The notes under the pieces are model-generated. The model saw only the letters and a program-made list of their open reading frames with translations. It was not told where the DNA came from and did not search any database. Below are positions 8,709-31,976 of a stretch of 64,000 nucleotides of DNA, in pieces; within the stretch, counting starts at the first letter, position 1; each line of letters begins with the position of its first letter. A program made the translations under genes and the position numbers. The stretch lies in the NCBI RefSeq assembly GCF_024699925.1, contig NZ_JAJOMX010000001.1:868001-932000 (forward strand), read 5' to 3'. Origin of the DNA: Mesorhizobium sp. J428 (GTDB taxonomy: Bacteria; Pseudomonadota; Alphaproteobacteria; Rhizobiales; Rhizobiaceae).

Positions 8709-8786
8709 TACCGTTTGATACGTCTTACTGTTCATTGCGCAGGCAAGTATGATTTCATACATAGTTGAGGACTTTGTCAAACGGTA
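8709..8786. promoter_or_regulatory. Candidate RpiR operator region: spaced 10-bp inverted repeat plus internal palindrome
   Basis: In the 135-bp divergent spacer, TACCGTTTGA (8709-8718) is repeated as its exact reverse complement at 8777-8786, centre-to-centre 68 bp. Between them, at 8747-8760, lies GTATGA-TT-TCATAC, a perfect 6-bp dyad. The left arm lies just upstream of the catabolic operon start and the right arm just upstream of the regulator gene, so both promoters could be controlled by one protein. Binding by the adjacent RpiR-type protein is inferred. Confidence 0.5.
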
Positions 8787-8836
8787 AACGCGCGGTGCCG
8801 GTGGACAACGAGGTCGTTCGCGGGAGGGAGAGGCAT

Positions 8837-14454: not shown

Positions 14455-15636
14455 TCACTGCGACTTGGTCGGATCGACGCGGCCGATCTCCACCCATTTG
14501 CCGTCCTTGATCTGCGAGATGAAGATCAGGTCGCCGCCCTGGTGGTCGTTCGGGCCGTATTTGACCGGAACGTCGCCGGAGATCACGTCGGTATATTCGA
14601 GGCTTTCCACACCCTTCTGGAAGCTCTCGGCCGTCAGGTCCTTGCCGGCGGCCTCAAGCCCCCGGATCAGCACCGTCGCGGCGCCGTAGCCAAGGATGGC
14701 CGCGGTGCCGGCCGGCTCACCGGTCTTGGCCTTGTAGTTGTCAGCCCAGGCCTTCACCTCCGGATTGTCCATGCGGGCTTCATGATCGGTCCACCCGGCG
14801 GAAGCGTAGTAGCCTTCGGTCACGCCCTCCGGCACCTTGGCAACGGCGGTGTTGAAGCCCGCCGACGAGCCGATGAATGCCGCATCCGTCCAGCCGAGCT
14901 TCTTCGCAGTGCCATACGCCACGATGGTCTGCCTCACGCCAACGGCAGTCGCAACGATGTCGCACTTGGCGTCGCGCAGCTTGGAGATCGTGCCGACGAA
15001 GTCCTGCTCGTCCGGCTTGTGCGTGGTCTCGGCCGCGAAGGTGAGGCCAAGCGCCGTAGCCTCGTCCTTCGTGCCTTCATAGACTTCCAGGCCGAAGTCG
15101 GTCGGCAGGTACATCGCGCAGACGTTCTTCGCGTTCCTTTCCTTGGCGAGGTAGCGGACGCCAGCGCGCATCTGGTCGTAATAGGACGAGAAACCCGCAT
15201 ATTTGTAGGTGATGTCACCCTCGAGCATCTGCCGGGCGGCGGTGAGCGGGCCGATATTGGCCACCTGCTTGGCCTGCATCATCGGGAAGCCGGCGATGTT
15301 ATGCGGCGTGCCGAGATTGAGGATCATCGCGAACACCTTGTCCGAGTTGATCAGCTTGTTGAAGTTCTGGACGGCCTTCGGCACCTGGTAGCCGTGGTCC
15401 TCCACCACGAAGCGGATCTTGCGGCCGTGGATGCCGCCCTTCTCGTTGACCTCGTCGAACATGACCTGCGCGGCCTTGATCGCGCCGACGTTGAAGGCGG
15501 CAAAGATGCCGGACAGGTCGCCGTTCGAGCCGATGACGATCTCGGTGTCGGTGACGCCCTGGGTCGCGAACGCGGCCGAACTCATGCCGAGCGCCAACCC
15601 CGCCGCGAGAATGGATGTCCTGAGTGCAGTTTTCAT
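14455..15636 (-). CDS. HAAT-family ABC transporter substrate-binding protein (LivJ-like)
   Basis: 393 aa from ATG 15636, chosen because AGGAGGAG stands just upstream; a longer frame start at 15669 overlaps the ligase. The signal peptide MKTALRTSILAAGLALGMSS ends near AAFA. The mature protein starts GVTDTEIVIGSNGDLSG, the typical opening of Leu/Ile/Val-type periplasmic binding proteins, with GIHGRKIRFVVEDHGYQ and ATAVGVRQTIVAYGTAKKLG later. It is the last gene of a livH-M-G-F-ligase-J operon and ends at a strong terminator. Coupling to an acyl-CoA ligase and catabolic genes suggests that the ligand is an aromatic, aliphatic or isoprenoid-type acid rather than a branched-chain amino acid, but that is inference from context. 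Confidence 0.9.
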   Translation of the reverse strand: MKTALRTSILAAGLALGMSSAAFATQGVTDTEIVIGSNGDLSGIFAAFNVGAIKAAQVMFDEVNEKGGIHGRKIRFVVEDHGYQVPKAVQNFNKLINSDKVFAMILNLGTPHNIAGFPMMQAKQVANIGPLTAARQMLEGDITYKYAGFSSYYDQMRAGVRYLAKERNAKNVCAMYLPTDFGLEVYEGTKDEATALGLTFAAETTHKPDEQDFVGTISKLRDAKCDIVATAVGVRQTIVAYGTAKKLGWTDAAFIGSSAGFNTAVAKVPEGVTEGYYASAGWTDHEARMDNPEVKAWADNYKAKTGEPAGTAAILGYGAATVLIRGLEAAGKDLTAESFQKGVESLEYTDVISGDVPVKYGPNDHQGGDLIFISQIKDGKWVEIGRVDPTKSQ

Positions 15637-15665
15637 AAAGGTCTCCTCCTGGTTTGTGACGTGAG

Positions 15666-17580: not shown

Positions 17581-18390
17581 TCACCGCCACGTCTTCTTCT
17601 GCTTCCAGCGCTTCTGGCCGCGCTGGGTCTCGCCCTGGACGCCGAGATAGAATTCCTGGATGTCCTTCGAGGCGAGCAGCCGCGCAGAGTCGTCGGCCAT
17701 CACCATGCGGCCGAGCTCCATGACGTATCCGTAGTCGGCGACCTCGAGCGCCACCTTGGCGTTCTGCTCGACAAGCATCATGGTGACGCCCTGCTCGCGG
17801 TTGAGCCGGCGGATGATGGTGAAGATCTCCTTCACCAGCAGCGGCGAGAGGCCGAGCGACGGCTCGTCGAGCAGCATCAGCTTCGGTCGCGCCATCAGGC
17901 CGCGCGCAATCGCGAGCATCTGCTGCTGGCCGCCCGACATCGTGCCCGCCGCTTGCCGACGGCGCTCCTTCAGGATCGGGAAATAGCCGTAGACCATCTC
18001 CTCGTCGGCCTTGATGCCGGCGGTGTCGCTGCGGACATAGGAGCCCATGCGCAGGTTCTCCTCGACTGTCAGCAACGGGAACACCTCGCGCCCCTCCGGC
18101 ACGTGGACGATGCCGGCCTTGACGACGCGGTCCGGCTCCTCGCCGGCGATGTTGCGGCCGCCGCACCAGATCTCGCCCTTCTCCGGGTTCATCACGCCGG
18201 AGATGGTCTTCAGGAGCGTCGTCTTGCCGGCGCCGTTAGCGCCGAGCACGGTGACGATCTGACCCTGGCGCACGTCGAGACTGACGCCGCGGATCGCCAT
18301 GATCGGCCCGTAATAGCTTTCGAGGTTGCGGACCGACAGCACGGCTTCCGCCGTGGAGGATGCGAGGTTGATCGCCTGCTTCAGCATCAC
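17581..18390 (-). CDS. HAAT-family ABC transporter ATP-binding protein (LivF-like)
   Basis: 269 aa. Walker A is GANGAGKTTLLKTISG, signature TMSGGQQQMLAIARGLMARP and Walker B LMLLDEPSLGLSP, with the LivF-specific HVPEGREVFPLLTVEENLRM and VEQNAKVALEVADYGYVMEL. It pairs with the neighbouring LivG as the cytoplasmic motor. The C-terminus carries a basic extension (QRGQKRWKQKKTWR), also seen in the other LivF here (52867-53700, KHYKRRKRWLS), a feature often found in LivF proteins encoded next to acyl-CoA ligases. It overlaps livG by an ATGA and the ligase follows after 13 bases. Confidence 0.93.
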   Translation of the reverse strand: MMLKQAINLASSTAEAVLSVRNLESYYGPIMAIRGVSLDVRQGQIVTVLGANGAGKTTLLKTISGVMNPEKGEIWCGGRNIAGEEPDRVVKAGIVHVPEGREVFPLLTVEENLRMGSYVRSDTAGIKADEEMVYGYFPILKERRRQAAGTMSGGQQQMLAIARGLMARPKLMLLDEPSLGLSPLLVKEIFTIIRRLNREQGVTMMLVEQNAKVALEVADYGYVMELGRMVMADDSARLLASKDIQEFYLGVQGETQRGQKRWKQKKTWR

Positions 18391-19172
18391 GCGACCACCC
18401 TTTCGTTCTCGTCGGCGACGCCGATATAGGCCTCGATCACCTTGGGATGGTTCTGCACCTCCTGCGCCGAGCCGATCGCCAGCATCTTGCCGTCGGCGAG
18501 CGCCATCACCCGGTCGGAGACCGAGGCGACGAGGTGCATGTCGTGCTCGACCATCAGCACTGTAATGCCCATCTGGGTCTTGATGTCCTCGATCCAGAAG
18601 GCGACGTCCTGCGTCTCCTCGACCGACAGGCCGGACGCCGGCTCATCGAGCAGCAGGAGGCGCGGCTCGATCGCCAGCGCGCGGCCCATCTCCACCACCT
18701 TGCGCACGCCGTACGGCAGGCCGGCGATGTATTTCTCGCGATAGGCCTGCAGGTCGAGGAAATCGATCACCTTCTCCACCGCCTCGCGGTGCCGCCGCTC
18801 TTCCCTGCGGACGAAGGGGGTGAACAGCATTTCGTTGAACATGTTGCCGCGGCGGTGGCGATGGCGGCCGACCAGAAGGTTCTGCAGCACGGTCGCCTGG
18901 TCGAACAGTTCGATGTTCTGGAAGGTGCGCGCGATGCCGAGCCGGGCGATCTCGTGCGGCGCCTTCTTGAGGATCGACTCACCCGCGAAGCGGATGTCGC
19001 CGGCGACCGGGTCGTAGAAGCGCGAGACGAGGTTGAAGAGCGTCGACTTGCCGGCGCCGTTCGGTCCGACAAGGGCGAACACCTCGCCCTCCTCGACCGA
19101 GAAGGAGACATTGTTCACCGCGGTGACGCCGCCGAACTTGAGGGTGACGTTTTCGACTTCCAGCAGGCTCAT
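18387..19172 (-). CDS. HAAT-family ABC transporter ATP-binding protein (LivG-like)
   Basis: 261 aa with Walker A GPNGAGKSTLFNLVSRFY, the Q-loop region ARTFQNIELFDQATVLQNLL, the signature-equivalent LPYGVRKVVEMGRALAIEPR and Walker B LLLLDEPASGLSVEET. The LPYGxxKxxE motif instead of a full LSGGQ is normal for LivG. It ends in the A-YIGVADE pattern typical of the family. ATGA overlaps join it to livM upstream and livF downstream, implying balanced synthesis of the transporter complex. Confidence 0.93.
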   Translation of the reverse strand: MSLLEVENVTLKFGGVTAVNNVSFSVEEGEVFALVGPNGAGKSTLFNLVSRFYDPVAGDIRFAGESILKKAPHEIARLGIARTFQNIELFDQATVLQNLLVGRHRHRRGNMFNEMLFTPFVRREERRHREAVEKVIDFLDLQAYREKYIAGLPYGVRKVVEMGRALAIEPRLLLLDEPASGLSVEETQDVAFWIEDIKTQMGITVLMVEHDMHLVASVSDRVMALADGKMLAIGSAQEVQNHPKVIEAYIGVADENERVVA

Positions 19173-20266
19173 CGCATGCGCTCCGTCTTGAGGTAGCTCC
19201 GCTGCCGGCGGAACATGTCGCGGCGGTAGAACGGGAACAGCTCGAAATAGGTGCGGATCTTCAGCCAGCGGCCGTAGATGCCCATCGGCTCGAACAGGAT
19301 GAACAGGATCAGGATCGCGCCGAACACGGCCGACTCCAGCCCCGGTATGGTGATCGCGGTTCCGGTGATCGAGCCGACCCAGTCGCGCAGCTGCGCGATC
19401 GCCTGCGGCAGGAGCGCGATGACCATGGCGCCGAAGAAGGCGCCGTGGATGGAGCCGAGCCCGCCGATGACGATCATCAGGAGCATCTGGATCGAGATGA
19501 TGATGGTGAAGGTCTCGTTGTTGAAGATGCCCGCGAAGTGCCCCATCAGCGCGCCGGCAAGGCCGGTGATCGCCGTCGACAGGCCGAAGGCGACCGCCTT
19601 GGTGCGTGCGACGTTGACGCCCATTGCCTGCGCCGAGATCTCGGAGTCGCGCACCGCGGCGAGCGAACGGCCGAGCGGCGTGCGCAGGATGTTGCGGTAA
19701 GCGAGCACCACCAGGACCGTGACAAACAGGATCAGACCGTAGAACCGCACCGGCGTGGCATAGCGGTCGAACTGGATGCCGAAGATGTCGATGGTCGGCG
19801 CCAGCAGGCCGTTGATGCCGCCGGTGAGCGGCTCGGCGATGACGATGAGGTCGTCGACCAGGATCGACACGGCGAGCGTGCCGATGGCGAGGTAGATGCC
19901 ATGCAGCTTCGACGTCGGGATTGCCAAGGCCACGCCGGCAAGGCCGGCGATGATGCCCGCGAGCGGCAGCGACAGGATGAAGGGCAGGCCGAGCCGGTCC
20001 TGCAGAAGCACGTTGGCGTAGCAGCCGACGGCCAGGAAAGCCGCGTGGCCGAGGCTTGCCTGGCCGGTCTGTCCGACGAGCAGCATCAGCCCCATGCCGG
20101 CGATCGCCCAGATGAGCACGTTGGTGACCTCGCCGAGCGCGAAATCGGACAGGACGAAGGGCAGCACGAGCATCGATGCCATCAACAGCAGGTACCAGAA
20201 GGCCTGCGCGCCGTGGCGGAAGAGGTTGATGTCGGCGTCGTAGCTGGTCTTGAAGACGGTGCGCAT
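19169..20266 (-). CDS. HAAT-family ABC transporter permease (LivM-like)
   Basis: 365 aa inner-membrane permease with about ten hydrophobic segments. The family motif GQTGQASLGHAAFLAVGCYA is near residue 65, and AVRDSEISAQAMGVNVARTK is the cytoplasmic loop that contacts the ATPases. IGGLGSIHGAFFGAMVIALL is the second conserved helix. The N-terminal MRTVFKTSYDADINLFRHGA is the extended cytoplasmic leader typical of LivM proteins linked to acyl-CoA ligases. Four bases separate it from livH and it overlaps livG. Confidence 0.93.
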   Translation of the reverse strand: MRTVFKTSYDADINLFRHGAQAFWYLLLMASMLVLPFVLSDFALGEVTNVLIWAIAGMGLMLLVGQTGQASLGHAAFLAVGCYANVLLQDRLGLPFILSLPLAGIIAGLAGVALAIPTSKLHGIYLAIGTLAVSILVDDLIVIAEPLTGGINGLLAPTIDIFGIQFDRYATPVRFYGLILFVTVLVVLAYRNILRTPLGRSLAAVRDSEISAQAMGVNVARTKAVAFGLSTAITGLAGALMGHFAGIFNNETFTIIISIQMLLMIVIGGLGSIHGAFFGAMVIALLPQAIAQLRDWVGSITGTAITIPGLESAVFGAILILFILFEPMGIYGRWLKIRTYFELFPFYRRDMFRRQRSYLKTERMR

Positions 20267-20269
20267 CGG

Positions 20270-21145
20270 TTACACCTTCTTCCTGTGGATCTGGGCCAGG
20301 ATGCCGTGCGGCCTGAACACCAGGATCACGAACAACAGCAGATAGGGCATGATCTGCGAGTAACCGGCGGCGATGTAGTAGGAGGCGAAGGGCTCGATCA
20401 GCCCGACGATGATGCCGCCCAGCAACGCGCCCGGAAGCGAGCCGAAGCCGCCGATGACCGCCGCCGCGAAGGCCTTGATTCCGAGCAGCCCGATCGACGG
20501 GTCGATCGATCCCTTCGAGGCGAAGAGGATGCCGGCAACCGCCGCGACCATGCCGGCCAGCGCCCAGATCAGCGAGTGCACGCGCTTGACCGGGATGCCC
20601 ATGTAGTAGGCGGCGAGCTGGTTCTGCGAGGCGGCCTGCATCGCCACGCCGAGCTTGGTAACGTTGAAGAAGAAGTAGAGCAGGATCGTCGAGATGATCG
20701 TCACCGCGATGACGACGATCTCGTCAAGGCCGAGCACGAGGCCGCCGAAGCGCACATCCTTGCCGGCGATGGGCGATTCCAGCGCGATCGGCTCGTTGCC
20801 CCAGATCAGCCCCGCCGCGAAGCGCAGCACGAAGCCCATGGCAATGGTGAGGATCACGATCGAAACCTGGGACTGGCCGAACATGCGGCGCAGCACGATC
20901 ATCTCGATCAGGTAGCCGAACAGGCCCATCGCGGCGATGGCGATCGGCACCGAGAGCCAGAACGGCAGGCCCCAGAACTGGTCGTTGGTGAGGCCGAGCG
21001 TGATGAAGGCGCCCAGCATCATGAAGTCGCCCTGGGCGAAATTGACCGCTTCCGTGGCCTTGTAGATGAGCACGAAACCAAGCGCGATGAGGCCGTAGAC
21101 ACAGCCGTTCGCAAGGCCGCTCACAAAGAGCTGCAATACGTCCAA
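20270..21145 (-). CDS. HAAT-family ABC transporter permease (LivH-like)
   Basis: 291 aa inner-membrane permease and first gene of the transport operon. Characteristic parts are SGLANGCVYGLIALGFVLIY, KATEAVNFAQGDFMMLGAFI, the loop AMQAASQNQLAAYYMGIPVK, and VIGGFGSLPGALLGGIIVGL. The 98-base gap upstream (21146-21243) would hold the operon promoter; no clear operator was recognised there. The start ATG has GGGAGGAG just upstream. Confidence 0.93.
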   Translation of the reverse strand: MDVLQLFVSGLANGCVYGLIALGFVLIYKATEAVNFAQGDFMMLGAFITLGLTNDQFWGLPFWLSVPIAIAAMGLFGYLIEMIVLRRMFGQSQVSIVILTIAMGFVLRFAAGLIWGNEPIALESPIAGKDVRFGGLVLGLDEIVVIAVTIISTILLYFFFNVTKLGVAMQAASQNQLAAYYMGIPVKRVHSLIWALAGMVAAVAGILFASKGSIDPSIGLLGIKAFAAAVIGGFGSLPGALLGGIIVGLIEPFASYYIAAGYSQIMPYLLLFVILVFRPHGILAQIHRKKV

Positions 21146-21243: not shown

Positions 21244-22284
21244 TTATGGTGCGATGAAGACCTTTCCATTCGGCTTAGCCAGCTCTTCCGGCACCCTTTT
21301 CATCGCGTCCGCGAACGGAACGATCGCCGTCACGTCGGTCGACCAACGTCCGTCGGCGAAGCGCTTCTGCGCCTCCATCACGGCAGCCCCCTTGCGCTGC
21401 GGATCCGTGGACCGCATCCACTCCGTCAGCCAGAATCCCTCGATCTTCTTGTGCATGAAGATCAGCTGTCCGGGCTCCTGGATCGGCGTCTCGGCCTGGT
21501 CGAGCCGCCCGTATATGATCCACCGCGCGCGCCGCGGCATCGCGTTGAAAATCGTCGCCGCCAGCGGCCCGGTCACGGCATCGAGCAGGATGCGCGGCTT
21601 TTCATTCTTGCACGTCTCCGCCAGCCGCTGCCCGAAATCGGGCGCTTCGGCGTTCAGCACGATTGCCGCCCCCGCCTTTTCCAGGAGCGGAATCTGGTCG
21701 TCGCGGCGCACGATGGCAATCGGACGATATCCCTCGTCGCGCGCGATTCCCATGATCAGCTTGCAGAGCTGGCTGGCGGCAGCGGTCAGGATGAAGGCCT
21801 TCTCGCCCTCCTGCTTGACGATGTCGAACATTGCGATCGCCGTCAGCGGATTGACGATCATCGCCGCGCCGTCGACATCCTTGACGCCGTCGATCAGCGG
21901 CAGGCAGGCCGCCGCCTCGGCGACGGCATACTCCGCCCAGGCACCCCAGTTGGAGATGCCCGTGGCAAACGCGACCCGCTTGCCGACCAGCTTCTGCGCG
22001 CCTGCATCTTCGCCTGCCGCGACCACTTCGCCGACGCCCTCGAATCCCGCCGGCTGCCCCTTTGCCCGAGGCTGGCCATACATGCCCTTGATGAACATGA
22101 CGTCCGACGGGTTGATCGAGGCCAGCGCGACCTTGACAAGCACCTGGCTGGCCTTCGGCGTGGGGACGGCAATGGTGCCAGGCGTCACATAGGGCTCCAT
22201 CGCCTCCAGCACGCTTCCCGAGGGACGGGTCGTGTAGCCGTCGTCGTTGAGGAGCAGTGCGCGCATGGTGGCGGGGAGCGTCAT
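21244..22284 (-). CDS. MDR-superfamily zinc-independent alcohol dehydrogenase / quinone oxidoreductase
   Basis: 346 aa medium-chain dehydrogenase/reductase. The GroES-like N-terminal domain contains NPSDVMFIKGMYGQ and AGFEGVGEVVAAG. The Rossmann part is degenerate at the usual GxGxxG (ILTAAASQLCKLIMGIARDE), a pattern of the quinone-reductase-like branch. No structural-zinc cysteine cluster and no catalytic zinc ligand set is visible. It follows the second MDR gene by ten bases and probably shares its transcript. In the acyl-CoA island it could reduce an enone or oxidise an alcohol intermediate; the substrate is unknown. Confidence 0.8.
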   Translation of the reverse strand: MTLPATMRALLLNDDGYTTRPSGSVLEAMEPYVTPGTIAVPTPKASQVLVKVALASINPSDVMFIKGMYGQPRAKGQPAGFEGVGEVVAAGEDAGAQKLVGKRVAFATGISNWGAWAEYAVAEAAACLPLIDGVKDVDGAAMIVNPLTAIAMFDIVKQEGEKAFILTAAASQLCKLIMGIARDEGYRPIAIVRRDDQIPLLEKAGAAIVLNAEAPDFGQRLAETCKNEKPRILLDAVTGPLAATIFNAMPRRARWIIYGRLDQAETPIQEPGQLIFMHKKIEGFWLTEWMRSTDPQRKGAAVMEAQKRFADGRWSTDVTAIVPFADAMKRVPEELAKPNGKVFIAP

Positions 22285-22294
22285 CGTCGGGGTC

Positions 22295-23263
22295 CTACGG
22301 CTTGAGGATCAGCTTGCCCGCGACGGCACGGTCGTGGATACGCCTAAGCACGTCCTTGGCCTCGGCGAGCGGGTAGATGCCTTCGATCACCGGCTTGAGC
22401 TTTCCGGCCACCAGCCAGTCCATCAGTTCGTGCATGTTCTCCTCATGCGCCTGCGGCTCCTTGGCCGTGAAGGTGCCCCAGAACACGCCGACGACGCTGA
22501 AGCCCTTCACCAGCGCGAGGTTGACCGGGAACTGAGGTATCTTGCCGGAGGTGAAGCCGATGACGAGCAGGCGGCCGTTCCAGGCCATCGAGCGCGCCAA
22601 CACGTCGAACATGTCGCCGCCGACGGGATCGTAGCCGACGTCGACGCCCTTGCCGCCGGTGGCTTCCTTCAGCGTCTCCCTGAGGTTCTCGTAGCCGAGC
22701 GTGATGTCCGCGCCCGCCGCCTTCGCGACCTCGCGCTTCTCTGGCGTGGAGGCGACCGCGATCACCTTAGCGCCCATGATCTTGCCGATCTGAATCGCCG
22801 CGAGGCCGGTGGTGCCGGCGGCGCCCAGCACGACGAGCGTCTCGCCGGGCTTGATCTGCGCCCGCTGCTTCAGCGCGTAGTGCGAGGTGCCGTAGCCGCA
22901 GATCAGCGCGCAGGCATCCGCGCCGGAGACATTGTCGGGCAGCTTGACGACGACGGACTCGTCCACGCCGATCTTCTCGGCATAGGCGCCGAGCGGCGTG
23001 AAGGAGACGACGCGGTCGCCAACCTTGAACTTCGTCACGGCCTCGCCGACGGCGGACACGCGGCCGGCCATCTCCATGCCGGGGACGAAGGGCGTCGGCG
23101 GCTTGGCCTGGTAGAGGCCCTGAACCAGCAACCCGTCCGGATAGTTCACGCCGATCGCCTCCGCCTCGATGACGACGGTGCGGCCGGTCGCCTTCGGCTC
23201 CGGCCAGTCCGCATAGTCGAGGTTCTCGATCGGTCCGTATTCGCGTGCGACGATCGCCTTCAT
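22295..23263 (-). CDS. NADPH:quinone oxidoreductase family protein (MDR superfamily)
   Basis: 322 aa from ATG 23263; the much longer open frame upstream overlaps the dehydrogenase gene and is rejected. It begins MKAIVAREYGPIENLDYADW, with NYPDGLLVQGLYQAKPPTPF and VPGMEMAGRVSAVG in the GroES domain. The NADPH site is VLGAAGTTGLAAIQIGKIMG. GGKGVDVGYDPVGGDMFDVL completes the quinone oxidoreductase pattern. No zinc ligands are seen. It sits five bases after the acyl-CoA dehydrogenase, in the same operon. Likely NADPH-dependent reduction of an activated alkene, or enoyl-CoA reduction. Confidence 0.87.
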   Translation of the reverse strand: MKAIVAREYGPIENLDYADWPEPKATGRTVVIEAEAIGVNYPDGLLVQGLYQAKPPTPFVPGMEMAGRVSAVGEAVTKFKVGDRVVSFTPLGAYAEKIGVDESVVVKLPDNVSGADACALICGYGTSHYALKQRAQIKPGETLVVLGAAGTTGLAAIQIGKIMGAKVIAVASTPEKREVAKAAGADITLGYENLRETLKEATGGKGVDVGYDPVGGDMFDVLARSMAWNGRLLVIGFTSGKIPQFPVNLALVKGFSVVGVFWGTFTAKEPQAHEENMHELMDWLVAGKLKPVIEGIYPLAEAKDVLRRIHDRAVAGKLILKP

Positions 23264-23268
23264 TGTCG

Positions 23269-24507
23269 TCACACCTTTTCCTGCGTGTATTTCTTCAGTT
23301 CCTGCCGGGCGATCTGCCGGCGGTGCACGGCGTCCGGCCCGTCGACGATGCGCAGCGTGCGCAGGTTCTTCCAGGTGCGCGCCAGCGGCGTGTCCTGGCT
23401 GACGCCGGCCGCGCCATGCAGCTGCACCGCCTCGTCGGCGATCTTCAGCGCGACCCTCGGGGCGACGACCTTGATCTGGCTGATCCACGGCGCCGCGGCC
23501 TTGGGGTCGCCCTGATCCATCATCCAGGCCGCCTTGAGACAGAGCAGGCGGGCCATCTCGATCTCCATCCGCGCCTCGGCGATGATGTCGTAGTTGGCGC
23601 CGAGCTTGGCGAGCGGTTGGCCGAAGGCCTCGCGGCGCATCGAACGGCGGCACATCGTCTCCAGCGCCATCTCGGCCTGGCCGATCGCACGCATGCAGTG
23701 ATGGATGCGGCCCGGGCCGAGACGGCCCTGCGCGATCTCGAAGCCCCTGCCCTCACCGAGCAGCAGGTTCGATGCCGGCACGCGCACATTGGTGAAGCGC
23801 ATGTGCAGGTGGCCGTGCGGCGCGTCGTCGTCGCCGTAGATCGTCATCGCGCGGACCTTCTCGACGCCGGCGGTGTCGGCCGGCACGAGGATCATCGAGT
23901 GCTGCGCGTGCTTGGGGCCGTCCTTCGAAGTGCGCACCATGACGATGTAGATGGCGCAGCGCGGATCGCCCGCGCCCGAGGACCACCACTTCTCGCCGTT
24001 GAGCACGTAATGGTCGCCGTCGCGCTCGCAGCGCATCGAGATGTTGGTGGCGTCGGAGGAGGCGACGTCGGGCTCGGTCATCAGGAAGGCGGAGCGGATC
24101 TTGCCCTCGAGCAGCGGCTTCAGCCACTTCTCCTTGTGCTCGCTGGCGCCGTAGCGCTCCAGCACCTCCATGTTGCCGGTGTCCGGAGCCGAGCAGTTGA
24201 ACACCTCGGCGCCGATATGGGCCTTGCCCATCTCCTCGGCGAGATAGGCGTATTCGACAGTCGTCAGGCCGTAGCCCTGGTCGGAATTGGTCAGCCAGAA
24301 GTTCCAAAGGCCGCGCTCCTTGGCCTTCGCCTTGAGGCCTTCGAGGATGTCCGACTGGCGCTTCGTGAACGACCAGCGGTCGCCGTCCTTGCCGACCTCG
24401 GCGAGGAACTCCTCGTCGAGCGGAATGACCTCGTCCCGGATCATCGCCGCCACCCGCGCATGGATCGGCTTCAGCTTCTCGGTCAATCCGAGGTTCATGT
24501 CACTCAT
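23269..24507 (-). CDS. Acyl-CoA dehydrogenase, ACAD11-like
   Basis: 412 aa flavoprotein of the acyl-CoA dehydrogenase fold. It carries the stretch EVFNCSAPDTGNMEVLERYG, FAD/substrate motif MTEPDVASSDATN, NGEKWWSSGAGDPRC, QHSMILVPADTAGVE and LGEGRGFEIAQGRLGPGRIH, then LHGAAGVSQDTPLA and RTLRIVDGPDAVH near the end. These phrases match the C-terminal dehydrogenase domain of ACAD10/ACAD11 far better than short- or medium-chain dehydrogenases. The kinase domain that is fused in animal ACAD10/11 is encoded separately at 26621-27652. It overlaps the TetR gene by ATGA. Expected role: acting on a 4-phospho- or 4-hydroxyacyl-CoA; this rests on family knowledge. Confidence 0.9.
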   Translation of the reverse strand: MSDMNLGLTEKLKPIHARVAAMIRDEVIPLDEEFLAEVGKDGDRWSFTKRQSDILEGLKAKAKERGLWNFWLTNSDQGYGLTTVEYAYLAEEMGKAHIGAEVFNCSAPDTGNMEVLERYGASEHKEKWLKPLLEGKIRSAFLMTEPDVASSDATNISMRCERDGDHYVLNGEKWWSSGAGDPRCAIYIVMVRTSKDGPKHAQHSMILVPADTAGVEKVRAMTIYGDDDAPHGHLHMRFTNVRVPASNLLLGEGRGFEIAQGRLGPGRIHHCMRAIGQAEMALETMCRRSMRREAFGQPLAKLGANYDIIAEARMEIEMARLLCLKAAWMMDQGDPKAAAPWISQIKVVAPRVALKIADEAVQLHGAAGVSQDTPLARTWKNLRTLRIVDGPDAVHRRQIARQELKKYTQEKV

Positions 24508-25157
24508 GGTCTTTCCTTGCCTTTTCCACCTAAGCCGCCGCGCGCGAACGCCACGACCTGGTCAACGATATTGTCGATGTCCTGCCTGCTCTCGCCGGGG
24601 CGCGGCTTGTACCAGAAGATCGGCGAGTTGAGCGCCATGAACATCATCTGGTTGGCGATGCTGAGATCGGCGAAGTGCATGTCGCCCTGGTCGCGCGCCC
24701 TCGCCATCTGCAGCCGGAAGACGTTGCTGTACTGGGACCGATACTCGACCAGCTCGTTCAGCTGGCTGCGCTGCTCCGGCGTGGTCGCGCCGCGCAGATG
24801 CATCTCGACACCCTCCCAGACCACGCGCTGATACGCCCGGGTCACGATCATCTGCCGCACATGGGTGTGCGCCATCTTCGTCCAGACAGCCACCGCCGGC
24901 TCGTCGAGCGACCGGAAAGGCTCGATCGCCGCGAAGTTCATATCCATGCCGGTGCGGAAGATCTGCGCAAACAGATCCGCCTTGGAGGAGAAGTGATGGT
25001 AGATACGGCCCTTGGTCGCCCGCAGCCTGCGCGCCACGTCGTCGATGGACGTCGCCGCATAGCCGCGTTCCATGAAACATGCGGCGGCCGCATCGAGAAT
25101 CTCGACGCGTGCCCTTTCGGTAACCGGCTCGCCGGCGCCAACTTCGGCCAGAACCAT
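24504..25157 (-). CDS. TetR-family transcriptional regulator
   Basis: 217 aa. An N-terminal helix-turn-helix reads ILDAAAACFMERGYAATSID, DVARRLRATKGRIYHHFSSK, ADLFAQIF, followed by a variable all-helical ligand domain that ends basic. It is the first gene of the minus-strand group TetR - acyl-CoA dehydrogenase - MDR - MDR and is divergent from the SDR-MaoC-kinase-SDR group. One dyad in the spacer (25226-25245) could let it repress both groups, with an acyl-CoA intermediate as inducer, as for many FadR/PaaR-type TetR proteins. ATGA overlap couples it to the dehydrogenase. Confidence 0.9.
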   Translation of the reverse strand: MVLAEVGAGEPVTERARVEILDAAAACFMERGYAATSIDDVARRLRATKGRIYHHFSSKADLFAQIFRTGMDMNFAAIEPFRSLDEPAVAVWTKMAHTHVRQMIVTRAYQRVVWEGVEMHLRGATTPEQRSQLNELVEYRSQYSNVFRLQMARARDQGDMHFADLSIANQMMFMALNSPIFWYKPRPGESRQDIDNIVDQVVAFARGGLGGKGKERP

Positions 25158-25225
25158 GACCTCCCTTTCCCGCAGACCTTTTGTGCGGCGTTGCCGATCG
25201 GGTCTTTACGGACAGGCAAATAATG

Positions 25226-25245
25226 AACATACTACTCGGTATGTT
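25226..25245. promoter_or_regulatory. Candidate TetR operator
   Basis: AACATAC (25226-25232) and GTATGTT (25239-25245) form a perfect 7-bp dyad with a six-base spacer, in the 141-bp divergent region between the TetR gene and the SDR gene. The size and symmetry fit TetR-family operators. Binding by the neighbouring regulator is inferred. Confidence 0.6.
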
Positions 25246-25298
25246 GTCAACGCGGCATCCGGCCCGTCCGGAGAATAAGCCCGCGAGGGGGAGGAAGA

Positions 25299-26114
25299 AT
25301 GGCCTATCTGGACGAACTGTTTTCGGTTGCCGGCAAGACGGCGCTGGTGACCGGTGCCGCGACCGGCATCGGCCGGATGATCGCCACTGCCCTCGTCCAG
25401 GGTGGCGCCCGCGTGCTGATCGCCTCGCGCAAGGCCGCCGACTGCGAGAAGGTCGCCGCCGAGCTCAACGCGCTGGGCGCGCCGGGCAGCGCCGAGGGAT
25501 TCGGCGCGGACGTGAGCACCGAGCAGGGCGTCGATGCGCTGGCCGCCGAGGTGAAGGCGCGCACCGGCAAGCTGCACATCCTAGTCAACAATGCCGGCGT
25601 GTCGTGGGGCGCCCCGCTCGAGGCCTTCCCCTATTCGGGCTGGGCAAAGGTGCTGAACGTCAACGTCACCGGCCTGTTCCACGTGACCAGGCAGCTCCTG
25701 CCGCTGCTCGACGCGGCCGCGGGCGACGACGACCCGGCCCGCATCATTAATCTCGGCTCGGTGATGGGCACCCAGCCGCTCGCCGACGACGCCTATTCCT
25801 ACACCGCCTCGAAGGCAGCCGTTCACCACCTGACGAAGACGCTCGCCAACGAATTCGCCAGCCGCCGCATCACCGTCAACGCGTTTGCGCCGGGCCCCTT
25901 CCAGAGCCGCATGACGGCCTTCGCCACCGCGAGCGACGACCAGGCCAAGACCGTCGGCAGCCGCGTTCCGCTGGGACGCATCGGCGCGCCGTCCGACATC
26001 GCCGCGGCCACCCTGTTCCTCTGCGGCCGGGGCGGCAGCTACGTCACCGGCGCAATCCTTCCGCTTGACGGCGGCCAATCGGTCCAGCATGGCATGACGC
26101 TGTTCAAGGAATGA
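25299..26114 (+). CDS. Short-chain dehydrogenase/reductase
   Basis: 271 aa classical SDR. The cofactor site is TGAATGIGRMIATALVQGGA (near residue 18), NNAG is in ILVNNAGVSWGAPLEAFP, catalytic Ser lies in NLGSVMG, and Tyr-Lys in YSYTASKAAVHHLTK. The ending DGGQSVQHG is normal. SD GAGG precedes the ATG. It opens a four-gene operon with a MaoC hydratase, a phosphotransferase and a second SDR. In an acyl-CoA pathway it would oxidise a 3-hydroxyacyl-CoA or a related secondary alcohol. Substrate not determined by sequence. Confidence 0.9.
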   Translation: MAYLDELFSVAGKTALVTGAATGIGRMIATALVQGGARVLIASRKAADCEKVAAELNALGAPGSAEGFGADVSTEQGVDALAAEVKARTGKLHILVNNAGVSWGAPLEAFPYSGWAKVLNVNVTGLFHVTRQLLPLLDAAAGDDDPARIINLGSVMGTQPLADDAYSYTASKAAVHHLTKTLANEFASRRITVNAFAPGPFQSRMTAFATASDDQAKTVGSRVPLGRIGAPSDIAAATLFLCGRGGSYVTGAILPLDGGQSVQHGMTLFKE

Positions 26115-26129
26115 GCGGCGAGGGCAGCC

Positions 26130-26624
26130 ATGCTGCAGGGAAGGAAGGAGCCGGTCACCGTCGACGTGATGGTCCGGCTGGTCGGCAAGGAGGTGGGGGT
26201 CTCGCCCTGGCGGACGGTCTCGCAGGAGATGATCGACCGCTTCGCCGACGCCACGGACGACCACCAGTTCATCCATGTCGACCCTGAGCGCGCCAAGGCA
26301 GAGACGCCCTATGGCGGCACGATCGCGCACGGCTTCCTGCTGCTGTCGTTGCTCTCGCCGATGACCTACGAGACGCTGCCGCCGCTGGAGGGCGCAGGGA
26401 TGGCGATCAACCACGGCTTCGACAAGATCCGCTTCACTGCGCCGGTTCGCTCCGGCGCGCGCGTGCGCACCCGTTTCGTGCTGGCCGAGATGAATGCGCG
26501 CCCCTCCGGCATGGTCCAGATCGGCTACGACGTGACAATGGAAATCGAGAATTCGCTGAAGCCGGCGCTGACCGCGCGCTGGCAGACGATCGCGGTGATG
26601 GACCGCAGGGACGAGCCGGCATGA
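26130..26624 (+). CDS. MaoC-like hydratase
   Basis: 164 aa hot-dog-fold protein. The MaoC hydratase-2 motif is DATDDHQFIHVDPERA (catalytic Asp/His pair) followed by YGGTIAHGFLLLSLLSPM. Members hydrate trans-2-enoyl-CoA to (R)-3-hydroxyacyl-CoA or act in related hydrations; the NodN-like branch is also close. No separate enoyl-CoA hydratase occurs in the cluster, so this gene probably provides that step. Its stop overlaps the start of the phosphotransferase (ATGA). Confidence 0.88.
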   Translation: MLQGRKEPVTVDVMVRLVGKEVGVSPWRTVSQEMIDRFADATDDHQFIHVDPERAKAETPYGGTIAHGFLLLSLLSPMTYETLPPLEGAGMAINHGFDKIRFTAPVRSGARVRTRFVLAEMNARPSGMVQIGYDVTMEIENSLKPALTARWQTIAVMDRRDEPA

Positions 26625-27652
26625 GCGATCCGAACGCGCTGGATGCGGGGGCGCTGGGCCCCTACCTCGCCGGGTATATCGACGGCTTCGGCACGCTCGA
26701 CGAGATCGTCAAGTTCAACGCCGGCCAGTCCAACCCGACCTATCTGCTGAAGACCTCCACCGGCCGCTTCGTGCTGCGCGCCAAGCCGCCAGGCGAACTC
26801 TTGAAATCGGCGCACCAGGTCGACCGCGAATACCGCGTCATGAAGGCGCTGGAACATACCGACGTGCCGGTGCCGCGCATGCTGCACCTGTCGGGCGACG
26901 ACTCGCCGATCGGCCGCCAGTTCTTCGTCATGGAGTTCCTCGACGGCCGCATCCTGTGGGACCCCGCGCTCGGCGAGATCGCCACAAATGCCGAGCGGGG
27001 CGCTATCTACGATTCCATGAACGCGACCCTGGCCAAGCTGCACGGCGTCGACATCCAGGCGCATGGGCTTTCCGACTTCGGCAAGCCGGGCAGCTATTTC
27101 GAGCGGCAGCTCACCCGCTGGACCAGCCAGTACCGCGCCTCCGAGACCGGCGCGATCGCCGACATGAACCGGCTGATCGAATGGCTGGAGAAGCGCATCC
27201 CCGCCGACGACGGGCTGGTGTCGCTGGTGCATGGCGACTACCGGCTCGACAACATGATGTTCGCCAGGGACAGGCCAGAAGTGATCGCCGTGCTCGATTG
27301 GGAACTGTCGACGCTCGGCCACCCCTATTCCGACATCGCCTACCAGTGCATGCAGTGGCGGCTGCCACACTCCTCCGGCTTCCGCGGTCTCGGCGGGGTC
27401 GACCGCAAGGCCGTCGGCCTGCCGAGCGAGGAAGAATATGTCGCGCTCTACTGCCGGCGGCGCGGCATCGCCGGCATCGACAACTGGACGTTCTATCTCG
27501 CCTTCTCCTTCTTCCGGCTCGCCGCGATCTGCCAGGGCGTCTACAAGCGCGCGCTCGACGGCAATGCGTCCAACCCGGAAAAGGCGAAGACCTATGGCGA
27601 AGCGGTCCGCCTCCTGTCCGCACTGGCTGTTGAACTGATCGACGGAGAATGA
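26621..27652 (+). CDS. APH-fold phosphotransferase, ACAD10/11 N-terminal domain type (acyl-CoA hydroxyl kinase candidate)
   Basis: 343 aa. A kinase-like fold shows the N-lobe FNAGQSNPTYLLKTSTGRFV, LRAKPPGELLKSAHQVDREY, and the catalytic motif VHGDYRLDNMMFA with the metal motif VLDWELSTLGHPYSDIAY. Segments such as IGRQFFVMEFLDGRILWDPA and QYRASETGAIADMNRLIEWL are those of the kinase domain of ACAD10/11 and of LvaA-type 4-hydroxyacyl-CoA kinases. This is not an antibiotic-resistance kinase: the family phosphorylates the gamma-hydroxyl of hydroxyacyl-CoAs, and a partner dehydrogenase then removes the phosphate. The matching dehydrogenase is 2.1 kb away (23269-24507). Function in this organism is inferred from family and neighbours. 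Confidence 0.88.
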   Translation: MSDPNALDAGALGPYLAGYIDGFGTLDEIVKFNAGQSNPTYLLKTSTGRFVLRAKPPGELLKSAHQVDREYRVMKALEHTDVPVPRMLHLSGDDSPIGRQFFVMEFLDGRILWDPALGEIATNAERGAIYDSMNATLAKLHGVDIQAHGLSDFGKPGSYFERQLTRWTSQYRASETGAIADMNRLIEWLEKRIPADDGLVSLVHGDYRLDNMMFARDRPEVIAVLDWELSTLGHPYSDIAYQCMQWRLPHSSGFRGLGGVDRKAVGLPSEEEYVALYCRRRGIAGIDNWTFYLAFSFFRLAAICQGVYKRALDGNASNPEKAKTYGEAVRLLSALAVELIDGE

Positions 27653-27653
27653 T

Positions 27654-28430
27654 GTGGCGCGTTTTTCAGGGCTGACCGCGATCATCACGGGCGCCACGGG
27701 CGGCTTCGGCCGCCGCACGGCGGAACGGCTGGCCGAAGAGGGGGGGCGCCTCGTGCTCTCCGACGTGCGCGAGGAACCGCTGCGGGAATTCGCCGCCTCG
27801 CTGCCGACCGAGACCGCGATCCGCGCCGGCGACATTTCGGACGAGGCGCTATCGGAGGCGCTGGTCGCGCTCGCAGTCGAGCGCTTCGGCGGGCTCGACA
27901 TCGCCATCAACAATGCCGGCGTGGCGCAGAGCTTCGTCAAGCTGCCGCTGGTGCCTTCGGACGAAGCTCGGCGCATCCTCGAGATCGACCTGCTCGGAGT
28001 GTTTTTCGCGCTCAAGCACCAGCTGCCGGTGATGGAGAAGCAGAACCGCGCTTCGGGCCGGCTCGGTGCCATCGTCAATATCGCGTCCGTGGCAGGCGTC
28101 TCCGGTGCGCCGCGGCTCGCGGTCTATTCCGCCGCCAAGCACGGCGTCGTCGGCCTCACCCGCTCGGCGGCGGCCGAATACGCCACCAAGGGCATCCGCG
28201 TGAACGCGGTCTGCCCCTCCTTCGCCCGCACCGCGATGGCGCTCGACTTCCTGAAGATGTCGCCGGCCGGCATCGAGGAAAGTGCCGCCAACCTGACGCG
28301 CGGCGTGCCGATGAAGCGGCTGGCCGAAGTGGACGAGGTGGTCGAGGTGATCCTCTTCGCCTGCGACCCCAAGAACACCTTCATGACCGGCCAGACCTTC
28401 GGCGTCGACGGCGGCATCACCGCCATCTGA
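27654..28430 (+). CDS. Short-chain dehydrogenase/reductase
   Basis: 258 aa from GTG 27654, one base after the phosphotransferase stop; GGAG at 27644-27647 supports the GTG start. Cofactor motif TGATGGFGRRTAERLAEEGG, NNAG in DIAINNAGVAQSFVKLPLVP, catalytic Ser in IVNIASVAGVSG, and Y-x3-K in LAVYSAAKHGVVGLTRSAA. The end TFGVDGGITAI is complete. It differs substantially from the first SDR at 25299, so the two are not a recent duplication. Possible 3-hydroxyacyl-CoA dehydrogenase in the pathway. It converges on soxG with a five-base gap. Confidence 0.9.
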   Translation: MARFSGLTAIITGATGGFGRRTAERLAEEGGRLVLSDVREEPLREFAASLPTETAIRAGDISDEALSEALVALAVERFGGLDIAINNAGVAQSFVKLPLVPSDEARRILEIDLLGVFFALKHQLPVMEKQNRASGRLGAIVNIASVAGVSGAPRLAVYSAAKHGVVGLTRSAAAEYATKGIRVNAVCPSFARTAMALDFLKMSPAGIEESAANLTRGVPMKRLAEVDEVVEVILFACDPKNTFMTGQTFGVDGGITAI

Positions 28431-28435
28431 GCCGC

Positions 28436-28993
28436 CTACTGGACAAGCGCAGCGTCGGCCGCCGCCTCTTCCAGGAAGTCGAAGGCATAGGCCGAGAACG
28501 ACCGCCAGCACTCGACACGGAACGTCGCCTCGCCGGTGCGCCAGATCACGACCTCGATCTTGCCGAGGATGGTGCGCGAGCACGCGCCGACCGGGAAAGC
28601 GGACAGCGACAGGTCCTGCGGGCAACCGGCATTGAGCGTCGCCTCCGCTCCCCTGCCCTCGACCAGGATCGCGGTGTTGCGGTGTGAGATGTCGACGGCG
28701 GAGTGAAGCGCCTTCGCCTTGGCGCAGTCTGCAAGCGGATCGCCGCTGGCGGTGTCGATGACGAGCCACTCGTCGGGGCCGAGCCAAAGGGCTGCGCGCC
28801 CGCCGGACTTCGACAGGGCGGATGTCTTCGGCTTCACCGGCAGCTTGACACCGACAGCCTTGGACAGCGCAGCGACGCCATCCGGCCCGGCGCGCAGCGA
28901 CAGGCGCGCGGCGGGTTCGGCGGGCGTGACCGTCACGGCGGGATTGGCGACCGTGCGGCCGGCGAGCGGGTGGGTGCGCAGCAGCTCAGCCAT
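28436..28993 (-). CDS. soxG: Sarcosine oxidase gamma subunit
   Basis: 185 aa from ATG 28993; the in-frame upstream extension lies within soxA and is rejected. The small gamma subunit resembles a truncated aminomethyltransferase domain: LWLGPDEWLVIDTASGD, HSAVDISHRNTAILVEGRG, NAGCPQDLSLSAFPVGACSR and FRVECWRSFSAYAFDFLEEA. It overlaps the alpha-subunit stop by eight bases. It is part of the heterotetrameric enzyme that demethylates sarcosine to glycine, yielding H2O2 and methylene-tetrahydrofolate. This is the last gene of the sox operon. Confidence 0.9.
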   Translation of the reverse strand: MAELLRTHPLAGRTVANPAVTVTPAEPAARLSLRAGPDGVAALSKAVGVKLPVKPKTSALSKSGGRAALWLGPDEWLVIDTASGDPLADCAKAKALHSAVDISHRNTAILVEGRGAEATLNAGCPQDLSLSAFPVGACSRTILGKIEVVIWRTGEATFRVECWRSFSAYAFDFLEEAAADAALVQ

Positions 28994-31976
28994 GGAGACG
29001 CTCTCCCTTCTCATCGAAGAACACCTGCCCGACCACCTCGACCTCGATGGTGCGATCCGGCATCGGCACGTGAAGCGTCTCACCCATGCGGTCGAAGCCG
29101 CCGGCGACCAGCGCCAGCGCGATGGAGCGGCCGCAGTTCTCCGACCAGTAGCTCGACGTCACATGGCCGATCATCTTCATCGGGATCGGCTGTTTCGGGT
29201 CCTCGACGATCTGCGCGCCCTCTTCCAGAACCACCTTCGGATCCTTCGTCCTCAAGCCGACGAGCTGCTTGCGGCCCTTGGCCGTGAGGTCCGCGCGCTT
29301 CAGGCCGCGGATGCCGACAAAATCGGTCTTCTTCTTGCCGATCGCCCAGTCGAGGCCGGCGTCCTGCGGCGTCACCGTGCCGTCGGTGTCCTGGCCGACG
29401 ATGATATAGCCCTTCTCGGCGCGCAGGATGTGCATCGCCTCGGTGCCATAGGCGCAGGCGCCGTGCTTCTGGCCTTCGGCCCAGACGGCATCCCAGACAG
29501 CGGCGGCGTAGTCGGCCGGCACGTTGATTTCAAAGCCGCGCTCGCCGGTGAAGGACATGCGGAACAGCCGCGTCGGCACACCGCAGATCCTGCCTTCGCG
29601 CACCGACATGTGCGGCATGGCGGCGTCGGACATGTTGATGCCCTCGACCAGCGGCTGAATGATGTCGCGACTCTTCGGACCCTGAACCGCGATGACCGCC
29701 CACTGTTCGGAGATCGAGGTCAGCCAGACGTCGAGATGCGGGAACTCGGTCTGGAGGTAGTCCTCCATGTGGTTCATCACGCGGGCAGCGCCGCCGGTCG
29801 TCGTGGTGACGTGGAAGCGGTCGGCTGCCAGCCGGCCCACGACGCCATCGTCGTAGATGAAGCCGTCCTCGCGCAGCATGATGCCATAGCGGCAGCGGCC
29901 GGGCTCCAGCTTCTCCCACGGATTGGTGTAAAGCAGTTCCATGAACTTCGCCGCATCCGGGCCGACGATCTCGATCTTGCCGAGCGTCGATGCGTCGAAG
30001 ATACCGGCGGCCTTGCGCACGGTGACGCACTCGCGGTCGACGGCCTTGTGCATGTCCTCGCCGGCGCGCGGATAGTGCACCAGGCGCGCTTCCACTGGCC
30101 GACATCCTCGAACACCGCGCCGAGCTTTTCCTCCTGCGCATGGAACGGCGTGCGGCGGGTCGGGTCGAACAGCTTGCCCTTGGCGTGGCCGATCAGCGCG
30201 CCGAAGGTGACGGGCGTGTACGGCGCGCGGAAGGTGGTGAGGCCGACCTCCGGCATCTCCTTGCCGAGCGCTTCCGCCGCGATCGCCAGGCCGTGGATGT
30301 TCGACGTCTTGCCCTGGTCGGTCGCCATGCCGTTGGTGGTGAAACGCTTGACGTGCTCGATCGAGCGCATGCCCTCGTGCACGGCCTGGCGGATGTCCTT
30401 CGCCGTGACGTCGTTCTGGAAGTCGACGAAGGCCTTTCCGGTCGATCCCGATCCGGCGCCCGGGGCAGCACCCACTATGCCGCCGGCCCAGCTCTCGGTC
30501 GTATCGGCCTTCAGCTTCGTTCCTGAAACCTTGGCAGCACCGGCGGCTTTCGCCGCCTTCTCGCCGGCGGCGAGCGCTTCCTTGACGGTGTCGGCGAGCG
30601 TGTCGGTGCCGGCGCAGGCGCCGACCGAAACGCAGTCCTGCGCATAGGTGCCCGGCAGGAAGCGGCGCGTGGCGCTGTCGAAGGCGACCTTGCCGCGCGA
30701 CTGCGAGAAGAGATGCACCGACGGCGTCCAGCCGGCCGACATCAGCAGCGCATCGACCGGGATCGAGCGCTCCGGCCCGCCCGCGGACGCACGGACGGAA
30801 ATGGAGGAGACACGCAGGCCCCCCCGACGCCTTGACCACCGTGCGGCCAGGCAGAACCTCGATGCCGAGGCGGCGCGCCTCGTCGAACAGCGGTCCAGCC
30901 GGGTTGTCGCGCAGGTCGACGATCGCCGCGATGGAAGCGCCGGCCTTCTTGAGGTCGATCGCAGCGGCATAGGCCGAATCTCCGGCCGTGAAGACGCCAA
31001 CATTCTTCCCGACCAGCACGCCGTAGTGGTTGAGATAGGTGCGCGCGGCCGACGCCAGCATCACGCCGGGCTTGTCGTTGCCGTCGAACACCATATGCCG
31101 CTCGATCGCGCCGGAGGCGAGGATCACGCGCTTCGCCCGAACCTGCCACAGCCGCTCGCGCGGCAGGTCGCCGGGGGCGGCGAGATGGTCGCTGACGCGT
31201 TCGACCAGACCGACGAGGTTCTGGGCGTAGTAGCCGAAGGCGGTGGTGCGGGTGAGCACGCGGACGTTGCCGAGCGCCGCGAGCCGCACCGCCGTCGCCT
31301 GCGCCCAGTCCCAGCCGGCCGCGCCATCGATCGTGGCGCCTGCCTCGAAGCGCAGCGCGCCGCCAAGCTGAGCCTGCTCGTCGGCGAGGATGACACGCGC
31401 GCCGCTTTCGGCCGCGGCAAGGGCTGCGGACAGACCGGCCCCGCCGCCGCCCAGCACCAGCACATCGCAATGCGCGTAACGCGAGGCGTAGCGGTCGGGG
31501 TCGGCCTTGTCCGGCGCGACGCCCAAGCCCGCGGCTGCGCGGATGTTGGGCTCGTAGACCGATTTCCACGCCGCCTTCGGCCACATGAAGGTCTTGTAGT
31601 AGAAGCCGGCCGAGAACATTGGCGAGGCGATGTCGTTGACCGCGCCGACGTCGAAGGCGAGCGACGGCCAGCGGTTCTGCGACACGGCGGTCAGGCCGTC
31701 ATAGACCTCCTGCACGGTGGCGCGGACGTTCGGCGTTTTCCTTGCCTCGTCGCGGTGTATACCGACCAGCGCGTTCGGCTCCTCGGCGCCGGCCGAGAGC
31801 ACGCCGCGTGGCCGGTGATACTTGAACGAACGACCCATGAGATGAACGCCGTTCGCGAGCAGCGCGGAGGCCAGAGTGTCGCCCTCGAGCCCCTGATAGG
31901 ACGCGCCATCGAAGGAAAAACGGACGGCCTTGCCGCTGAGGCGGCCGGCGCCGGTGGTGCGAAATGCCGCGGTCAT
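28986..31976 (-). pseudogene. soxA: Sarcosine oxidase alpha subunit, two compensating frameshifts
   Basis: Spans 997 codons in total, the usual length of the alpha subunit, from ATG 31976 (ATGA overlap with soxD). Domains in order: N-terminal 2Fe-2S-like/NADH-oxidase part with GVHLMGRSFKYHRPRGVL, FAD/NAD site LVLGGGGAGLSAALAAAESG, a pyridine-nucleotide oxidoreductase region, then a C-terminal folate-binding aminomethyltransferase domain beginning ASTLGKIEIVGPDAAKFMEL. Two single-base shifts break it. One extra C lies in the C7 run 30819-30825, and about one base is missing near 30082-30092, between ...DVGQWKRA and LVHYPRAGEDM. Between them the middle ~245 residues (VSSISVRASAGGPERSIPVD onward) read well in the other frame. 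Both look like sequence errors. Confidence 0.85.

Follow-up and report, generated by a model that had tools for sequence, protein, structure and literature searches.

We analysed a window of 64,000 nucleotides from Mesorhizobium sp. J428 (contig NZ_JAJOMX010000001.1, positions 868,001 to 932,000; host genome size 5.88 Mb). It contains a gene cassette built around a candidate 4-hydroxyacyl-CoA kinase, an acyl-CoA dehydrogenase (ACAD) of the type found in ACAD10 and ACAD11, and a TetR-family regulator. The cassette is probably one arm of a TetR-controlled catabolic unit for acids giving 4-hydroxyacyl-CoAs, which would pass through the kinase and the ACAD and then through a pim-type beta-oxidation operon lying elsewhere in the genome. 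The chemistry is known; its regulatory and metabolic setting is new. The proposal draws on what was observed in homology, active-site residues, conserved linkage, and a palindrome with its adjoining genes. The central features are the following.

23269–24507, minus strand: predicted 4-phosphoacyl-CoA-type acyl-CoA dehydrogenase (ACAD10/11, LvaC type), from structure matches and residue alignment
24504–25157, minus strand: TetR-family regulator, from a TetR_N match and co-occurrence with the palindrome
25226–25245, no strand: candidate TetR operator AACATACTACTCGGTATGTT, in the spacer separating tetR from the divergent SDR1 gene, from palindrome scans
26621–27652, plus strand: 4-hydroxyacyl-CoA kinase candidate (APH fold, ACAD10/11 kinase-domain type), from homology and residues

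LvaA and LvaC of Pseudomonas putida, as well as ACAD10/11, convert a 4-hydroxyacyl-CoA into a 4-phosphoacyl-CoA and then into a 2-enoyl-CoA (PMC11342911, PMC12440821). The best solved matches of the window ACAD were 4hr3 and ACAD11 (8v3u, 8v3v, 2wbi), with E values from 1.8e-125 to 4.9e-119, and a wide gap separated them from the next-best solved ACAD (E 3.6e-44). By alignment, its residues R262, R267, H270, R273 and D389 correspond to R626, R631, H634, R637 and D753 of ACAD11 (the chain numbering being, by our own count, that of the paper minus one). R626, H634 and R637 were reported to bind the 4-phosphate in a model, and their mutation to stop the dehydrogenase step; D753 is the catalytic base and is needed (PMC12440821). 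The window protein thus carries the Arg/His/Arg motif and the catalytic Asp replacing Glu that mark the ACAD10/11-LvaC type. When 77 hits were reduced to 41 aligned rows (L018 and L019 among them representing one duplicated stretch), the R,R,H,R,D set was present in 33 and R,R,Y,R,D in one more; another row covered the N-terminal part of a split gene, whose other part is among the 33. Ordinary ACADs of the host made up six rows, five of them distinct and covering 6 of the 21 ordinary matches in its genome, and all read xRxxE at the same positions. The complete set was also kept in all 80 named loci, which were the best by ACAD from at least 548 relatives and included Mesorhizobium, Aquamicrobium, Hoeflea, Chelativorans and Nitratireductor.

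A proline described as highly conserved and pocket-widening, Pro463 of human ACAD11 (PMC11342911), is replaced by Ala100 in the window ACAD. Within its group, each of the 20 rows had Ala or Gly here, while the 14 other pair-type rows covering the site had Pro (11), Ser (2) or Asn (1); the 80 named loci had Ala (77), Gly (2) or Pro (1). Pro463 was not treated as defining because it lies outside the mutagenesis-essential residues and is variable across the bacterial family.

The kinase gave a similar picture. Its best solved matches were 3dxp (E 8e-105) and ACAD11 (E 5e-77), and its nearest relatives, where a source was named, were proteins of Mesorhizobium and related Rhizobiaceae. D206, N211, D226, the R69-E70 pair and R162 were kept in the alignment to ACAD11. 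The ACAD11-type kinase set (D220, N225, the Arg beside the alphaC Glu, which is R86 in the paper and 84 by our own count, and Arg176) was complete in all but one of the 33 kinase rows, the exception being a partial sequence that keeps those residues within its span. These rows were obtained by reducing 67 hits, the kinases of two host loci (L056 and L057) falling under the threshold and outside the residue count. Since the protein belongs to the broad Pfam family of aminoglycoside phosphotransferases (APH), it might act on an aminoglycoside or another unrelated small molecule beside an ACAD gene that is there by chance. We consider this very improbable: the score on the APH(3') model, 45 bits, is far under its cut-off (205), on which ground we rejected an aminoglycoside kinase, ACAD11 is among the best solved relatives, and the gene was paired with the ACAD in 64 of 67 relatives' loci.

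It is therefore well supported, from comparison of the proteins, that the two genes correspond, as separate units, to the kinase and dehydrogenase halves of ACAD11, as a preliminary description of the window had proposed; in the comparison to ACAD11 that it called for, ACAD11 ranked with the top solved structures for the kinase and the dehydrogenase alike. Both would have the activities published for their homologues. Like mammalian ACAD10/ACAD11 (8v3u, 8v3v, 2wbi), the pair comprises both domains, the kinase Asp/Asn, and the Arg/His/Arg with the catalytic Asp; it differs in being two genes on opposite strands, in having Ala for Pro463, and in lying in a bacterial cassette with a transporter, a ligase and a TetR regulator. 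As LvaA/LvaC and a Burkholderia pair are already published, the window adds no new kind of pair. The separate Burkholderia orthologues (kinase Q63VL0) substituted for each ACAD10 domain in vitro, and the ACAD10/11 kinases share 29% identity with LvaA (PMC11342911). No cassette or regulon is described for the Burkholderia pair in the part of that source available to us.

The palindrome AACATAC-N6-GTATGTT at 25226–25245 lies between the divergent tetR and SDR1 (short-chain dehydrogenase/reductase 1) operons. With short variations it was found in 40 of 41 tetR–sdr1 intergenic regions, two genomes being counted twice. Gene counts were made in those 67 of the 80 named loci that span 20 kb or more; all were chosen by their ACAD, which is at least 77% identical to that of the window. 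The site was present in 28 of 28 loci with a detected tetR and in 3 of 39 without one, leaving 36 with neither (Fisher 8e-16, over genomes that are not independent). The reversed sequence gave no match across the same loci (one strand scanned). Two of the three loci with a site and no detected tetR (L205, L212) show a kinase/ACAD arrangement as in genome G020, and L140, the third, yielded a tetR match that spans just under half of the query, below the coverage limit. These scans tolerated three mismatches and would miss weaker sites.

At this tolerance the host genome contains two sites in total. A set of 61 genomes had 28 sites, spread over 14 of them, against two hits for the backward pattern. 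Thirteen were at kinase/ACAD/tetR/SDR1 loci, 11 before pcaD-pim operons, one before a tetR-livHMGF-fadD-livK operon with a pimF-like gene (47%) in G020, two beside acyl-CoA dehydrogenases of about 600 amino acids (G020 and G027), and one, in G037 from another family, was by eye without such a gene. Thus 27 of 28 sites adjoined the cassette, the pim operon, the transporter operon or another acyl-CoA dehydrogenase. In G025, where kinase and ACAD blocks are on separate contigs, there is one site at each; G020 has three, at its kinase/ACAD locus, at the locus of tetR and the transporter, and at the dehydrogenase of about 600 residues. This distribution is what a shared regulator predicts, and the palindrome appears to be the operator to which the TetR protein would bind. 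Against this reading, 16 of the 28 genomes that encode both enzymes had no site with up to three mismatches; control through the palindrome would therefore be confined to part of the group.

The second host site (contig C1:3646864–3646883) lies 24 bp before a minus-strand operon, 2.75 Mb from the cassette in contig coordinates. Its order (L218) is a PcaD-like hydrolase, a FadB-like PimF, a PimA-like ligase, a thiolase, PimC and a PimD-like protein. NCBIfam cut-offs were passed for PcaD (343.9 against 255.85), PimC (679 against 623.85) and the thiolase (616.4 against 615); PimD (516.9 against 652.7) and PimA (651.5 against 705.6, from an open reading frame with an N-terminal extension) were the best models under their cut-offs. 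No pimE was seen by eye adjoining the operon. A pcaD-pim operon followed the site in 10 of 14 further-site regions from relatives, and the pcaD-first arrangement was found after the site in 11 genomes, the host included, two regions being cut by contig ends. The window cassette has no thiolase, as had been remarked in the preliminary description together with a possible outlet into general beta-oxidation. The second operon, bearing the same palindrome, supplies a candidate for the missing thiolase and extends that suggestion, and the route probably feeds beta-oxidation through it.

The pimF-A-B-C-D order and LivK-type uptake of fatty or dicarboxylic acids recall pimFABCDE and RPA3723/RPA3724 of R. 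palustris, where LivK-type proteins bound fatty, dicarboxylic or aromatic acids and two are encoded beside pimFABCDE (PMC3223731). The present operon differs in being headed by a PcaD-like gene and in sharing its palindrome with a distant (2.75 Mb) kinase/ACAD cassette. A PcaD-type enol-lactonase passing its cut-off, at the head of an operon with PimA-like and PimC genes in those 11 genomes, would also suit 4-hydroxy diacids or lactones derived from aromatic rings (muconolactone-like dead ends), with lactone opening, saturation by the medium-chain dehydrogenases/reductases (MDRs), removal of the 4-hydroxyl by the kinase and ACAD, and dicarboxylate beta-oxidation. This origin of the substrate seems unlikely. 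No ring-opening gene was seen in the cassette, and the host pob/pca locus (L265, C1:148001–167900) has no pcaD, the only host gene over the PcaD cut-off being the one heading the distant pim operon. That enzyme may be the host's own 3-oxoadipate enol-lactonase, and for this reason the lactone substrate suggested in the preliminary description, although favoured by an enol-lactonase in this position, is only hinted at.

The remaining genes of the proposed unit extend on both sides of the central features, and every reading frame named in the preliminary description was located where it had been placed.

14455–15669, minus strand: LivK-type solute-binding protein, closest in sequence to 4n03 (entry title: fatty acid ABC transporter binding protein)
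15666–17567, minus strand: acyl-CoA ligase (AMP-binding), best NCBIfam model FadD11, under its cut-off
17581–18390, minus strand: LivF-type ATPase, by eye
18387–19172, minus strand: LivG-type ATPase, by eye
19169–20266, minus strand: LivM-type ATP-binding cassette (ABC) permease, by eye
20270–21145, minus strand: LivH-type ABC permease, by eye
21244–22284, minus strand: MDR2, QOR-like reductase with wider conservation than MDR1, from homology and locus counts
22295–23275, minus strand: MDR1, PIG3/QOR-like candidate enone or enoyl reductase (probable role), from homology
25299–26114, plus strand: SDR1, candidate 4-oxo- or 3-oxoacyl reductase/dehydrogenase (probable role), nearest solved structure RhlG (2b4q)
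26130–26624, plus strand: MaoC-type enoyl-CoA hydratase (probable role), nearest solved structure Rv0130
27654–28430, plus strand: SDR2, candidate hydroxyacyl-CoA dehydrogenase (probable role), from profile searches

The minus-strand run reads tetR-ACAD-MDR1-MDR2-livH-livM-livG-livF-fadD-livK, from 25157 down to 14455; it enters the livH to livK part (21145–14455) without a strand change, and its largest gap is 98 bp. The transporter and ligase that had been noted beside the cassette thus belong to the same run. SDR1, MaoC, the kinase and SDR2 form the plus-strand run (25299–28430). Several neighbouring genes overlap by 4–7 bp, MaoC and the kinase by 4 bp. The liv names were assigned by eye from sequence, as were those of many neighbour genes in relatives, from sequence starts. 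For LivK, comparison of structures failed to discriminate by Z between a fatty-acid binder and an amino-acid binder. A sarcosine-oxidase-gamma-like gene (by eye) at 28436–29083 had a counterpart close to the cassette in 55 of the 67 loci, which probably reflects chromosomal synteny.

Conservation was strongest for the inner part of the cassette. Among the 61 genomes (kinase E<=1e-60, ACAD E<=1e-90), 28 had both kinase and ACAD, five the kinase only, none the ACAD only, and 28 neither. The 67 loci contained the kinase in 64, with kinase and ACAD gene starts at most 2247 bp apart in as many, SDR1 in 62, MDR2 in 61, MaoC in 60, SDR2 in 50 and MDR1 in 32; any MDR was found in 65, tetR in 28, livKHMGF with fadD in 22, and all 14 genes in 17. 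Mesorhizobium xinjiangense lm94 (L144) and M. albiziae DSM 21822 (L169) are examples with the full set. MDR1, taken from the 61-genome set as a strict core gene, lost that status to these counts. Regions taken around the kinase contained all 14 genes in the same order in 9 of 20 relatives (L062–L070). Some relatives have the ACAD block beside a thiolase and another SDR (profiled in L114; by eye in L080, L112 and L078, the last found via the kinase rather than the ACAD). In locus L080, moreover, ACAD and kinase are separated by a gene (8763–9596) that by eye resembles histidine phosphatases; the levulinate cluster of P. citronellolis is also reported to include a member of the histidine phosphatase family (PMC6692424). 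In more distant relatives from the same taxonomic order, four loci (L125, L126, L128, L130) have a kinase 46–49% identical near purD/xseA-like genes (by eye), and no ACAD within the region read around it.

The proposed unit may instead be a general fatty-acid or dicarboxylate regulon, an alphaproteobacterial counterpart of that of FadP, to which the kinase/ACAD pair is accessory and which has no dedicated 4-hydroxy substrate. We regard this as possible, and as a less probable reading than a unit for 4-hydroxy acids. The second target, a pim-like beta-oxidation operon with its own ligase, would fit it, as would the two relatives' sites at ordinary acyl-CoA dehydrogenases of about 600 residues; FadP, a betaproteobacterial TetR protein of fatty-acid degradation, has regulons averaging 17.9 genes (PMC5343134). 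Against it, the kinase, SDR1, MaoC and an MDR are what is retained where transporter, ligase and tetR are missing; most site-bearing genomes (10 of 14) also have only two sites, few for a global regulator. The likeness to FadP is that of a TetR regulator tied to fatty-acid degradation genes; the rhizobial case differs in its lineage and its few targets.

The host genome has four further pairs of a kinase and an RRHRD-type dehydrogenase, with differing neighbours that were mostly named by eye.

C1:614297–618621: pair L056, neighbours TRAP (tripartite ATP-independent periplasmic) and sugar ABC transporters
C1:1308415–1310469: pair L057, neighbours peptide ABC transporter and CoA-transferase
C1:3125367–3127795: pair L058, neighbours sugar ABC transporter and a fused double SDR
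C1:4878033–4880246: pair L060, neighbours crotonases, thiolase and ligase

Several pairs per genome are not unusual, other relatives having up to three such ACADs (E<=1e-90). The L058 ACAD and the L060 kinase were each read in two frames, and real breaks look the same here as assembly errors. The stretches L018 and L019 (C1 25337 and 5307432) are 99.95% identical over 3987 bp, as if a circular contig had been left untrimmed with an implied overlap of about 33.7 kb; contig C4 shows a comparable doubled hit pair.

The preliminary description suggested the cassette as a candidate pathway of the levulinate or lactone type. Its two-gene pair is supported, with the residues needed for the 4-phospho route, and so is a probable feed into beta-oxidation; levulinate as the substrate is not. 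A pathway for levulinate and 4-hydroxyvalerate equivalent to the P. putida lva operon would account for the kinase, ACAD, SDR and ligase and uses the same chemistry (PMC6692424, PMC11342911), lvaABCDE sharing with the window a separate kinase and dehydrogenase, an SDR and a CoA ligase (PMC6692424). The window differs in its ABC importer and its MDR and MaoC genes, and its LivK and the pim genes point to longer acids. The lva operon is governed by the sigma54-type regulator LvaR and also encodes LvaB, a 12-kDa partner of LvaA, the reductase LvaD and the ligase LvaE. The window regulator is of the TetR_N type and not LvaR, and a whole-genome profile search gave no match to DUF6285, which we take to be the family of LvaB. 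Moreover, the L056 pair, whose ACAD is 52% and kinase 28–32% identical to the window proteins, resembles the published Lva identity profile more closely, by an indirect comparison of identity profiles only. The regulator, the DUF6285 result and the substrate side together led us to reject the lva operon as the family of the cassette, and a role in levulinate catabolism is improbable.

We propose instead the following course for the TetR-controlled unit. LivKHMGF would import a carboxylic acid and FadD would convert it to the CoA thioester; MDR and SDR enzymes, where needed, would saturate an enone or reduce a 4-oxo group. The kinase would then phosphorylate the acyl-CoA at its 4-hydroxyl; expulsion of this phosphate by the ACAD10/11-type dehydrogenase would yield the 2-enoyl-CoA, leaving MaoC/SDR and the unlinked pcaD-like and pimFABCD operon to finish beta-oxidation. 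These roles of the MDR, SDR and MaoC proteins, like the regulation, are likely ones, and so is the substrate class: medium- or long-chain (di)carboxylic acids giving 4-hydroxyacyl-CoAs, for example plant fatty acids hydroxylated at an even-numbered position, or related lactones. A narrower version is tentative. The regulon might be dedicated to hydroxylated fatty and dicarboxylic acids of the cutin/suberin type, one TetR repressor and its operator joining LivK/FadD uptake, the kinase/ACAD pair that would take off the obstructing 4-hydroxyl, and the lactonase-headed pim operon, while the four further pairs would serve other 4-hydroxy acids.

No description of such a TetR regulon was found among the top-ranked results of a literature search. 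The cassette makes the ACAD10/11 reaction accessible to genetics in a bacterium. Because an importer, a beta-oxidation arm and a candidate switch site come with it, the natural substrate could be found through what releases the repressor. In soil bacteria, the purpose of this system may be to clear 4-hydroxyacyl-CoAs that block the beta-oxidation of hydroxylated plant lipids.

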